A DNA stretch of 64,000 nucleotides from assembly GCA_937127435.1 (NCBI GenBank), contig CAKZLZ010000124.1:28602-92601 (forward strand), in the 5' to 3' direction. The notes beneath the pieces were generated by a model. It made no database searches. It saw nothing but the letters and a program-made list of their open reading frames with translations, and was not told where the DNA came from. The DNA is from an uncultured Verrucomicrobiota bacterium (GTDB taxonomy: Bacteria > Verrucomicrobiota > Kiritimatiellia > SS1-B-03-39 > UBA6053). A program made the translations under genes and the position numbers. Position 1 is the first letter of the stretch. Each line of letters opens with the position of its first letter. Positions 3 through 49,877 of the stretch are shown here, piece after piece.

Positions 3-2762
3 CGTTATATCACAGGGGTATGGGATACAGAAAATCCCGGCGACGATCCCGTTTGGCTGATTTCATCGACCTCTGGAAATGCCATCGACCCTCTGGCCGC
101 CCCCAACACCGCGAACAGTATTGCACTGGTCGACACCGGCGTGCTTGGCAGCAGCCCGGACTTAAACGACCGGATCTTTGCAGAGCTGGTGGAATTAGAT
201 ACTTCCAACCGCCAGGGGAACTACGCCTGGTGGATTTCCGACGAGGGCGTGAAAGCGAGTTTAAGCCTGAATGATCCTTTTGAATCCGCTGCGGATATAG
301 ACACCCTTGACGCCACTGAACTGACACGTTTGCGCTATGGCGTTCCGGTTCGAAACGCCCAGGAAATGGCCCTGACCCCGTCCACAGATTTTGAAGATAC
401 CGCTTCCAACGCCTTTTTCGATTCAGTTGTGAACTTGGATCAGTATCCCTTTTACGCCAATTTGGACAATCCCCGTGAAAACGGAGGCATTCACCACTAC
501 ACCCACCGCGCCACCGGATTGCTGACCCAGCCCCTCACCGGCGGCGTAAAAAAAGATCTGTCCTTGGCCCCGCAACTTTTGGGCACGGGCTTTGAAGAAT
601 ACATGGATTTCACCACCTATCTGGTTGAACCCTCCACCACCCATCCGGTGATTAAAACCGCGGATGATCTCCGACGCGCCCACTATATCACGCCCCCCAC
701 CACCCTCACCCCTTCCAATGGCGACATCGTCCATTCCGTAACCCCCATTATCACAGACTTCGGACTGCAGTTCAGTCCCCGGAGGGAATCCTCAACCGAT
801 GGGGAGGCAACCCTCATGATGGCGATCATGCTGGAACTTTGGAACCCCTATACCACGGCCTTGGAGCAGGAAGATCTCATCCTGGAGATCACCGGACTTC
901 AACCCTTTGAGATGACCCTCAGGGACGCCGCAGATACCGTGATGTGGTCTGATACTTTTGACCCGAATTCCATCTTCAGCAATACCATTAGTATCCGCTT
1001 GGGTCAGGAACAGTTTCACAGTGCGACCTATGTCTTTCTGGAAGACGGCGCCTATGATATGGAATTGCACGGACCGGGAAGACTGCTCTACTGGACAGGT
1101 CCGGACCAGGACCACCCCGACCAGGCGAGCTTTGCGAGCCGCCGCTCCAATCTTTCCCGTTTACAGGGAAGCATCAGCCCCGGCATCACCTTCCCCACCG
1201 GCACGGGGACCGGCACCTACAAAGTCGGATACACCATGGATCCTACGGAACTTACCGTCCGATTAAGGCGCGCACCTGAAAACGGCGGAGAGATTTTAGT
1301 CGAACATCAGAACCTGCAATATGATGACGTGGACAATATCGATCACGGCACCCTCAGCTACTGGCAAAATCGATGGTTGACCTACAGATTCAGGATGATT
1401 GAGCGGGGGACCACGTATCTGGGGGATCGGAGTGCATGGCTTAAAAATGTGGACAAACGCACCCCGAATCCGAGATTTGGGGACGACATCAGCACCGATG
1501 CCCACACCCTGCATGAATCGGCGACCTCTTACGCCCCGGATGATTCAGGGTTGAAAAACAACTTAAGCGTCGACCAGGATTCAACCATTTATTATTTCGA
1601 CCGCACCTTAAGTAACAGTGAGTATAGCCGGGACACCCGGCGGGACATCTCCCTGTTTGAACTTCCCCGCCAGCCCTTGATTTCCGTGGGGCAACTTCAG
1701 CAACTCTACATTCACGGCATGCCCCCTTACAGCATTGGCAACCCCTGGGGGGGCAGCACCTGGAACCAACTTTTTGACGACTACTTTCTCTCCGGCATTC
1801 AGCGGGATATTTCAGAACCGGACTTCAGTTCGTCGTCCTATCCGCAACTCCCCCACCCCCGCCTGGAACTCGCAGATCCCCGGGATCTGGGGCTGGCCTC
1901 CTTCGACAACAATACCCTCTCCACTTTAGACGAAGATTCCGCACTGGCATTAAAAGTGAGAGGACAGTTCAATCTGAATTCCGTATCCACCCAGGCGTGG
2001 AAAACCGTGCTGGCCGGCTCCCGCTTCGTCAACTTTAAGCACACCCTCCGCGATACCAATCTGCATGATGCCACCCACAGCAATGTTCTCATCGATACTG
2101 CCAACGATTACCCTGCAGGTTTCACCCGCTTCCCGCAATCGATTCAGGAATTGTTCGATGTGGATAACATCAGCTTTGACACCAGCTATGACAGCTTGAT
2201 GTTAAACTTAAAACCGGGGATCACTTTTTTGGTGGACCGGGATACCTTTAACGAAGATGATACCGATTACGATATTTCGGACGAAAGCAAAATTGATTCC
2301 ATGGCGGAAGAAATAGTTGACGCGATCAAGCAGCGCATGCAGAATGTAGGTCGACCCTACTTCACGCTCAATGAATTTCTCACCGAACCTTATGACAATG
2401 GAGATCCCATATTAGAATACGTGATAGAAACCGCCGGATTACGCAGGAGGGCTACCCCCAGTGGCTCCATTACGCCTGAAGAACGAACCCCCGGCTGGCT
2501 TTCACAAGCGGACGTTATTTCGACCCTCGCCCCTTTCCTTTCGACCCGGTCAGACACCTTCACCATCCGGGCGTATGGAAATGTGGAAGCGCCCAATGGC
2601 GATATCTCCTCACAGGCCTGGTGCGAAGCCACCGTTCAAAGAACCATTACCCCGGTTGAATCCGGACTCTCTCTAAGCGAAATGGCCAATCCTTTAGACT
2701 CCGCATTCGGCCGACACTTCAAAATCATTTCATTCAAATGGCTTTCACAATCAGAAATTTAA
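3..2762 (+). CDS. Verru_Chthon cassette protein A-like protein (5' truncated by window edge)
   Basis: Frame is open from the window start (RYITGVWDTENPGDDPVWLISS...). C-terminal FTIRAYGNVEAPNGDISSQAWCEATVQRT resembles the end of the Verru_Chthon cassette protein A family (TIGR02600). Confidence 0.75.
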   Translation, partial: RYITGVWDTENPGDDPVWLISSTSGNAIDPLAAPNTANSIALVDTGVLGSSPDLNDRIFAELVELDTSNRQGNYAWWISDEGVKASLSLNDPFESAADIDTLDATELTRLRYGVPVRNAQEMALTPSTDFEDTASNAFFDSVVNLDQYPFYANLDNPRENGGIHHYTHRATGLLTQPLTGGVKKDLSLAPQLLGTGFEEYMDFTTYLVEPSTTHPVIKTADDLRRAHYITPPTTLTPSNGDIVHSVTPIITDFGLQFSPRRESSTDGEATLMMAIMLELWNPYTTALEQEDLILEITGLQPFEMTLRDAADTVMWSDTFDPNSIFSNTISIRLGQEQFHSATYVFLEDGAYDMELHGPGRLLYWTGPDQDHPDQASFASRRSNLSRLQGSISPGITFPTGTGTGTYKVGYTMDPTELTVRLRRAPENGGEILVEHQNLQYDDVDNIDHGTLSYWQNRWLTYRFRMIERGTTYLGDRSAWLKNVDKRTPNPRFGDDISTDAHTLHESATSYAPDDSGLKNNLSVDQDSTIYYFDRTLSNSEYSRDTRRDISLFELPRQPLISVGQLQQLYIHGMPPYSIGNPWGGSTWNQLFDDYFLSGIQRDISEPDFSSSSYPQLPHPRLELADPRDLGLASFDNNTLSTLDEDSALALKVRGQFNLNSVSTQAWKTVLAGSRFVNFKHTLRDTNLHDATHSNVLIDTANDYPAGFTRFPQSIQELFDVDNISFDTSYDSLMLNLKPGITFLVDRDTFNEDDTDYDISDESKIDSMAEEIVDAIKQRMQNVGRPYFTLNEFLTEPYDNGDPILEYVIETAGLRRRATPSGSITPEERTPGWLSQADVISTLAPFLSTRSDTFTIRAYGNVEAPNGDISSQAWCEATVQRTITPVESGLSLSEMANPLDSAFGRHFKIISFKWLSQSEI

Positions 2763-28184: not shown

Positions 28185-28261
28185 CGGAGCGTGGCTCAGC
28201 CTGGTAGAGCACTTGCCTGGGGGGCAAGGGGTCGCAGGTTCGAATCCTGTCGCTCCGACCA
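28185..28261 (+). tRNA. tRNA-Pro(GGG)
   Basis: cggagcg...cgctccgacca acceptor; anticodon arm cttgc-ctGGGgg-gcaag; T-arm gcaggttcgaatcctg; encoded CCA. Confidence 0.96.
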
Positions 28262-28398
28262 TCTTTTTACCCCTGTATACCAGCGACAGGAGTCGAACCT
28301 GCGAAGCAGGTCGAAACGAAGCGTAGCGGAGTAAGCGCAATGTATTCCCATTGCGAGTGAAGCGCAGCGAAACGCCAATCCTGTCGCTCCGACCATCT
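28262..28398 (+). repeat. tRNA 3'-end composite element (Pro copy): inverted T-arm copy, GAA, T-arm 5' half, conserved core, duplicated tRNA 3' end
   Basis: 22-bp direct repeat aatcctgtcgctccgaccatct at 28243-28264 and 28377-28398. Inverted T-arm copy at 28282-28302 (20/21). Core hairpin CGCAATG-TATTCC-CATTGCG at 28336-28355. Confidence 0.85.
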
Positions 28399-49367: not shown

Positions 49368-49655
49368 AAGGAAGCCTCGATAGCGATTAATATATCAAAC
49401 GTGTGATAATATTAAATAATAAGAACCCTCATGAAGCAAGCTATATTTTGAGAGTATAATAACCCTTTTCAATTGCGGTATTGGCAACGGCCCGCGGTTT
49501 ACCAAAAACAATGGAATCACCGAAGGCTTTCACAATAAAATGGAAACCCTCTCAAGAAATGCCTATGGGTTCCGGAATTTTGAAAACTACAGATTGCGCG
49601 TGAGAGTCATGTGTTCTTAGTCTATTGCCAACATGCCCCACTTTATGGTGTTGAC

Positions 49656-49800
49656 CCCCTTTGTCTCCATTTTTAAAATGGAGCCGGCAGAGGGATTGAC
49701 GGGCTTTGCCCTCCCGTGGGAATACACGGGCTTACTCCGCTTTGCTTCGTTTCGAACACCCCTTCGGCGGTTCTCATCCCCTTTGCCTCCATTTTTAAAA
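49656..49800 (-). repeat. tRNA 3'-end composite element (Thr copy)
   Basis: 42-bp direct repeat with 1 mismatch at 49656-49697 and 49778-49819. Core shares (minus strand) TTCGAAACGAAGCAAAGCGGAGTAAGC and hairpin CCCGTG-TATTCC-CACGGG (49713-49730) with the Pro copy. Confidence 0.85.
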
Positions 49801-49877
49801 TGGAGCCGGCAGAGGGATTCGAACCCCCGACCCGCTGATTACAAATCAGCTGCTCTGGCCAACTGAGCTATGCCGGC
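49801..49877 (-). tRNA. tRNA-Thr(UGU)
   Basis: Minus strand gccggcatagctcagttggccagagcagctgatttgtaatcagcgggtcgggggttcgaatccctctgccggctcca; anticodon TGT; encoded CCA. Confidence 0.96.

Follow-up and report, generated by a model that had tools for sequence, protein, structure and literature searches.

The DNA analysed here, a stretch of 64,000 nucleotides referred to as the window, comes from an uncultured bacterium of the Kiritimatiellota. Both of its tRNA genes bear one short composite unit each, 122-134 bp in length. The unit behind tRNA-Thr lies on the minus strand and is listed in the sense of the tRNA:

49801..49877, minus strand: host tRNA-Thr(TGT), T-arm GGGGGTTCGAATCCCTC (ARAGORN; Rfam tRNA 70.9 bits)
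49781..49800, minus strand: post-tRNA spacer TTTTAAAAATGGAGGCAAAG (read from the sequence; recurs at 49659-49678 with one mismatch)
49766..49780, minus strand: inverted (antisense) T-arm GGGATGAGAACCGCC (12/15 against the reverse complement of the Thr T-arm)
49763..49765, minus strand: GAA turn between the inverted and sense arms (read from the sequence; same position in most family copies)
49751..49762, minus strand: sense 5' half of the T-arm GGGGTGTTCGAA (read from the sequence)
49698..49750, minus strand: core, at the split of the T-loop copy, with three predicted hairpins (fold, covariation, R1 and R3 matches)
49739-49745, minus strand: core hairpin GC-AAA-GC (fold)
49713-49730, minus strand: middle core hairpin CCCGTG-TATTCC-CACGGG (fold and covariation)
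49701-49711, minus strand: core hairpin GGGC-AAA-GCCC (fold)
49679..49697, minus strand: second copy of the tRNA-Thr 3' half AATCCCTCTGCCGGCTCCA (direct repeat, offset 122)
49659..49678, minus strand: second copy of the spacer (direct repeat)

The corresponding parts behind tRNA-Pro are on the plus strand:

28185..28261, plus strand: host tRNA-Pro(GGG), T-arm GCAGGTTCGAATCCTGT (ARAGORN; Rfam tRNA 63.7 bits)
28262..28281, plus strand: spacer TCTTTTTACCCCTGTATACC (read from the sequence)
28282..28302, plus strand: inverted T-arm and part of the acceptor stem AGCGACAGGAGTCGAACCTGC (22/23 against the reverse complement of the Pro T-arm region)
28303..28305, plus strand: GAA turn (read from the sequence)
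28306..28315, plus strand: sense 5' half of the T-arm GCAGGTCGAA (read from the sequence)
28316..28376, plus strand: core (whole-unit fold z = -5.2; R1 and R3 matches)
28336-28355, plus strand: middle core hairpin CGCAATG-TATTCC-CATTGCG (fold)
28377..28395, plus strand: second copy of the tRNA-Pro 3' half AATCCTGTCGCTCCGACCA (direct repeat, unit length 134)

The two units share one order of parts, namely inverted T-arm, GAA turn, sense 5' half of the T-arm ending in TTCGAA, hairpin-rich core, tRNA 3' half and spacer. An earlier note on this DNA had described such a composite element behind tRNA-Thr and had claimed that both tRNA genes of the window bear it with a conserved architecture; every part it named was found in its place, and the common order of the Thr(TGT) and Pro(GGG) units bears out the second claim. 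The whole-unit model, whose seed includes both elements, matches the window at exactly these two places. The direct repeat of the Thr unit spans 42 bp with one mismatch, at an offset of 122. Agreement of 12/15 in the inverted Thr T-arm has P ~ 0.001 in a mononucleotide shuffle within that stretch, and the 22/23 of the inverted Pro arm was reached in 0/20,000 shuffles. A truncated ISL3-type insertion sequence (PF01610, E=1.7e-11; window 49435-49658) adjoins the second Thr spacer and is not native flank.

Predicted RNA folds of the units comprise an outer stem, formed by the inverted arm and the second 3' half, a T-arm hairpin and the core hairpins, and the centroid of the E. coli unit considered below has a similar predicted fold of five stems. 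The fold of the Pro unit is stable (z=-5.2), as is that of a Pro unit in the related genome G008 (-4.9); the window Thr unit, at -1.6, folds little better than its shuffles. The Thr and Pro core stems differ and still pair, as had been claimed, and the further claim that the middle hairpin covaries is strongly supported over 21 distinct sequences: 98.4% of cells are paired, two-sided changes occur at 6/6 pairs, and the covariation of 0.832 (0.254 when shuffled) was reached in 0/500 shuffles and is destroyed by sliding the partners. Whole stems seem to have been swapped at once, and the covariation may therefore owe as much to the arrival of new palindromes as to gradual compensation. The TATTCC loop is identical in the Thr and Pro units, as the earlier note had said, but it is typical only of the genus and of a few outside families; cores that differ in their stems form subtypes, and other family members carry CGAAGT-type loops at this position.

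The earlier note knew of no named family for this arrangement. One exists: the anatomy is shared by RtT (Rfam RF00391; E. coli rttR/tyrT, b4425). In E. coli K-12 tyrT/tyrV, 3.1 tandem copies of 178 bp show the same part order as the window units, with the tRNA 3' end, spacer, inverted T-arm (GGATGAGAA...), turn and GGTTCGA, then a core of consecutive hairpins with GCGAAGC-type motifs, followed by AATCC, acceptor and CCA. The Kiritimatiellota units likewise lie behind a tRNA gene and end with a copy of the 3' end of that tRNA, present the inverted T-arm, turn, T-arm 5' half, core and T-arm 3' half in that order, and occur as tandem repeats of variable copy number, with one unit at each window locus and two to five in the genome of the same-genus strain B12222. 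The TGAGAACC change in the Thr inverted T-arm is found in K-12 RtT also, and the GGATGAGAA arm of K-12 recurs in the window's Thr unit. RtT has been reported to carry a tandem GA beside the T-arm helix (PMC7657543), to which TGAGAAC/GTTCGA of the Thr unit may correspond as judged by eye; the Pro and Ser units have paired TTCGAACC instead.

Homology is supported in both directions, since RF00391 matches units of the family and a model built from Kiritimatiellota only (R3) finds the E. coli units. RF00391 aligned over its full length with the Pro-GGG units of G008 (36.5 and 32.4 bits; E=1.4e-5 and 1.4e-4), and in 13 genomes at E<=0.5, 12 of its 13 matches fell on arrays that had been found independently by R1 or by a flank survey. 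Conversely, R3 recovered all four E. coli units, an E. coli unit ranking first with 35.4 bits (E=1.4e-6). Kiritimatiellota units differ from RtT in their hosts, which are Pro, Ser and Thr tRNAs of another phylum, in their core sequence ACGAAGCGNAGCGGAGTAAG with its TATTCC loop, and in scores that lie below the curated gathering cut-off of 45 bits. This cut-off was reached by no Kiritimatiellota unit and by nothing in the window, RF00391 gave no match in the source genome even at E<=0.5, and the units are not formal members of the Rfam family. We consider the window elements very probably to be RtT-type repeats, distant homologues of E. coli tyrT/tyrV RtT.

RtT has been described at tyrT and at other tRNA operons of Gammaproteobacteria, has been likened to the repeated BIME elements, differs in copy number between Salmonella serovars, and contains a tandem GA that covaries (PMC4986893, PMC2965389, PMC2658671, PMC7657543, PMC8250186). 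It was known by 1991 at the latest, and its role was never settled. A search of the open-access literature found no paper on such units outside Gammaproteobacteria.

A survey of tRNA downstream regions across the source genome, covering the 3' flanks of 43 tRNA matches, had been proposed in the earlier note and revealed further loci. The element stands at five in all, behind Pro-GGG, Thr-TGT, Ser-GGA, Ser-TGA (two cores in a row) and, on contig C71, a displaced Pro-TGG 3' half, and the remaining flanks are without it. The six core matches at E<=0.01 in this genome are all tRNA-linked. The C71 copy, behind a Pro-TGG 3' half only, was apparently displaced from its tRNA by an integrated element, with phage-like genes upstream as judged by eye. 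The end sequence of the ISL3-type element beside the Thr unit also follows the C71 array (L001, about 1628-1672), and these are its only two occurrences in the source genome.

In strain B12222 (G002, CP120722), all 20 core matches lie in arrays. The Pro-TGG array has five units of 135 bp, that of Thr three of 215 bp with two cores per unit, that of Ser-GGA two of 159 bp, and the one following a displaced Ser-TGA 3' half three of 146 bp; further arrays stand behind Pro-GGG and Pro-CGG. Unit length is about 120-220 bp, and copy number varies between relatives from 1 to 5. Integrated elements seem to separate tRNA-Pro(TGG) of the source genome (C71, L001 1-1430, with C234, L023) and tRNA-Ser(TGA) of B12222 (L318) from their arrays, and both displaced arrays begin with the tRNA 3' half only. 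A comparison of orthologous tRNA loci, also put forward earlier as a way to find empty sites, yielded six of them in the congener G004, at Ser-GGA, Ser-TGA, Pro-GGG, Pro-CGG, Pro-TGG and Thr. At Ser-GGA, G004 has the tRNA, one terminator and then, by eye, the same AraC-like gene as the source genome, where the native terminator occurs twice with the unit in between. Given that the terminator is single in one genome and duplicated around the unit in the other, the two loci represent the empty and the filled site of one insertion. Cores were found in G004 only as a pair of copies within a group II intron (L095, about 981-1050 and 1220-1288, minus strand; RF02001 80 bits, RVT_1 1.8e-41). Among 388 genomes sampled from the phylum, tRNA-linked matches are confined to the family of the source organism, and the one match outside it, in G025, was seen without tRNA context.

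The claim that the arms match each host tRNA is supported by the Thr and Pro agreements and by variation between relatives. In G001 the T-stem of tRNA-Pro-GGG is CTGG/CCAG, against CAGG/CCTG in the source genome, and the inverted arm and 3' half of its element are altered to match. The inverted arm fitted its own host better than every clearly different arm in 32/45 units, a set that includes Gammaproteobacteria and in which two entries are complete neighbouring tRNA genes and not units. The hosts also share a T-loop: TTCGAATCC was present in 34/34 distinct hosts tested compared with 51/126 other tRNAs, a comparison partly biased, outside the source genome, by the way the loci were found. In the unbiased survey of the source genome it was present at 5/5 element loci and in 10/37 others (P=0.0035). 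A strict need for this loop is contradicted by tRNA-Arg-CCG of Neomarinimicrobiota, whose T-loop is TTCGACTCC and whose unit carries a host-matched ACTCC; a full palindrome is therefore not strictly required.

The same anatomy was found in Neomarinimicrobiota behind Ser-GGA, Ser-GCT and Arg-CCG, where some host tRNA genes have no encoded CCA and their units have none either. In the class of one gammaproteobacterium, RF00391 matched 66/369 genomes at E<=0.001, only 23 of them above the cut-off, and those loci that were read follow tRNAs for Tyr, Gln, Ser and Arg and have arms that match the host. The Rfam RtT model thus seems to undercall the family. The recurrence of one anatomy, with arms that follow the host, in Kiritimatiellota, Neomarinimicrobiota and Gammaproteobacteria makes a general class of what had looked like an oddity of a few operons.

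Parts of the core occur away from tRNAs as well. The 20-mer ACGRAGCGNAGCGGAGTARG was seen in unrelated contexts, including Geobacillus/Anoxybacillus hairpins, Clostridia palindromes, a repeat of one Acidobacteria genome and tandem copies in Sulfuricaulis/Muproteobacteria (L139, L155, L163, L177, L187, L199; L125, L128, L140; L138, L185, L196; L131, L150, L183). It was rejected as a diagnostic on its own, and the counts were accordingly restricted to copies in a T-arm context. In IMG/VR, the exact pattern of T-loop and core gave no viral carrier, and the looser 20-mer gave four matches, in none of which tRNA anatomy was seen. At five Neomarinimicrobiota loci (L180, L132, L151, L171, L186), the 5' half of the core with ACGAACGAAGTGAAGTC lies away from tRNAs in AATCCG-type repeats; one such case is a 63-bp tandem array in which the core is flanked by AA on both sides.

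Our overall reading, to which we give a probability of roughly 0.6, is that the elements are RtT-type repeats copied from the host tRNA by inverted template switching, varied in number by unequal exchange and provided with a portable core. A unit would arise by DNA copying at a tRNA gene with a near-palindromic T-loop (TTCGAA), where the replicating strand would switch template and back, leaving a forward-inverted-forward copy of the T-arm. A portable core of stable mini-hairpins would be present or acquired in the split T-loop. GCGNAGC matches the GNA-loop DNA mini-hairpin motif, and an explanation by such DNA mini-hairpins would be consistent with the data. Unequal exchange over the duplicated 3' half and spacer could raise or lower the number of units, while the match between arms and host tRNA would be maintained by local copying. 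With read-through, transcription behind the tRNA may take in the unit, which would then fold into a five-stem RNA like that reported for E. coli RtT transcripts. A DNA-level origin is favoured by the order of the T-arm parts, the near-palindromic T-loops, the duplicated terminators, the empty sites, the changes in copy number and the core in a group II intron. For DNA copying as the main driver we see about even odds: no intermediate stage of template switching was caught among the loci examined, and conserved pairing and the published RtT transcripts are equally compatible with an RNA function. Since filled and empty sites both occur among congeners, the origin can be tested directly.

RNA function is the main rival, because RtT RNA has been reported as a real transcript, both from E. 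coli (Bosl and Kersten 1991, cited after PMC2965389 and PMC4986893) and, on Northern blots, from Actinobacillus (PMC2965389, PMC4986893). The unit would then be primarily a small RNA that is made together with the tRNA, is released when the tRNA matures and serves as a regulator, in line with the role in amino-acid starvation proposed for RtT. The tandem-GA motif and the covarying helices reported for RtT (PMC7657543, PMC8250186) agree with this, as do the stem covariation and the stable folds of the two Pro units described above. About 12 of 43 units, however, lie past a terminator-like hairpin (14 raw matches, two of them within the inverted arm itself), which makes general co-transcription with the tRNA unlikely; moreover, the units are present or absent at orthologous loci within one genus, vary in copy number from 1 to 5, use tRNAs of many identities as hosts and, in the window Thr unit, fold much like their shuffles. 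We regard a primarily functional small RNA as a tentative alternative, clearly less probable than our reading.

Two explanations that invoke mobile elements fare worse. Attachment sites of phages and integrative elements in tRNA genes share the duplicated tRNA 3' half, as in attL/attR, and mobile elements apparently lie between tRNA and array at source Pro-TGG and B12222 Ser-TGA. An attR scar of an element using the T-loop and 3' end would nevertheless account neither for the inverted T-arm nor for a conserved core within the T-loop, and the tandem units and duplicated terminators also speak against it; units of 122-219 bp are too short for an integrase gene and contain none, and at both interrupted loci the element apparently predates the integration, so that this origin is very unlikely. 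REPINs (PMC3116915) and the repetitive hairpin elements of sponge mitochondria (PMC2800124) are likewise short, non-coding, hairpin-forming and apparently portable, as is the present core, which sits also in a group II intron and in other repeats. Mobilisation in trans of a REP/REPIN-like palindrome by a RAYT (Y1) transposase could draw on GTAG/GTAA-like bases ahead of the core hairpin and on the abundance of Y1 transposases (19 in the source genome, 17 in B12222). The RAYT link that the earlier note had suggested seeking was not borne out, as Y1 genes are just as common in relatives that lack the element, a core lay within about 1 kb of 0/20 sampled Y1 loci, and the cores of both genomes occur only in tRNA-linked arrays, tied to tRNA 3' halves and inverted T-arms, unlike REPs scattered between genes; such a mechanism has scarcely any probability in our estimation.

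Beyond our reading, it is a real though less likely possibility that RtT-type units form a cross-phylum class of self-amplifying elements templated by tRNAs, in which a portable cluster of stable mini-hairpins would drive inverted triplication of any T-arm it meets, each insertion rebuilding the arms from the new host tRNA, and of which E. coli RtT would be one domesticated example.

Further inserts were seen at related loci. At L310 (G003), L285 (G006) and L308 (G005), the split T-loop holds a second type of core at the same position, rich in GC (GATTACCGAGCC...GCAGC). Small inserts lie within the second tRNA 3' half at L274, L315 and L286. Two are clear palindromes (CCCGCCATAGGCGGGCAAG, CCCGCCCACGGCGGGTAAAT), which gives the impression that hairpins insert preferentially into array copies. 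Behind tRNA-Asn (GTT) (L012, about 390-622, minus strand), a degenerate tRNA copy is broken by hairpin inserts and represents a different kind of tRNA repeat.
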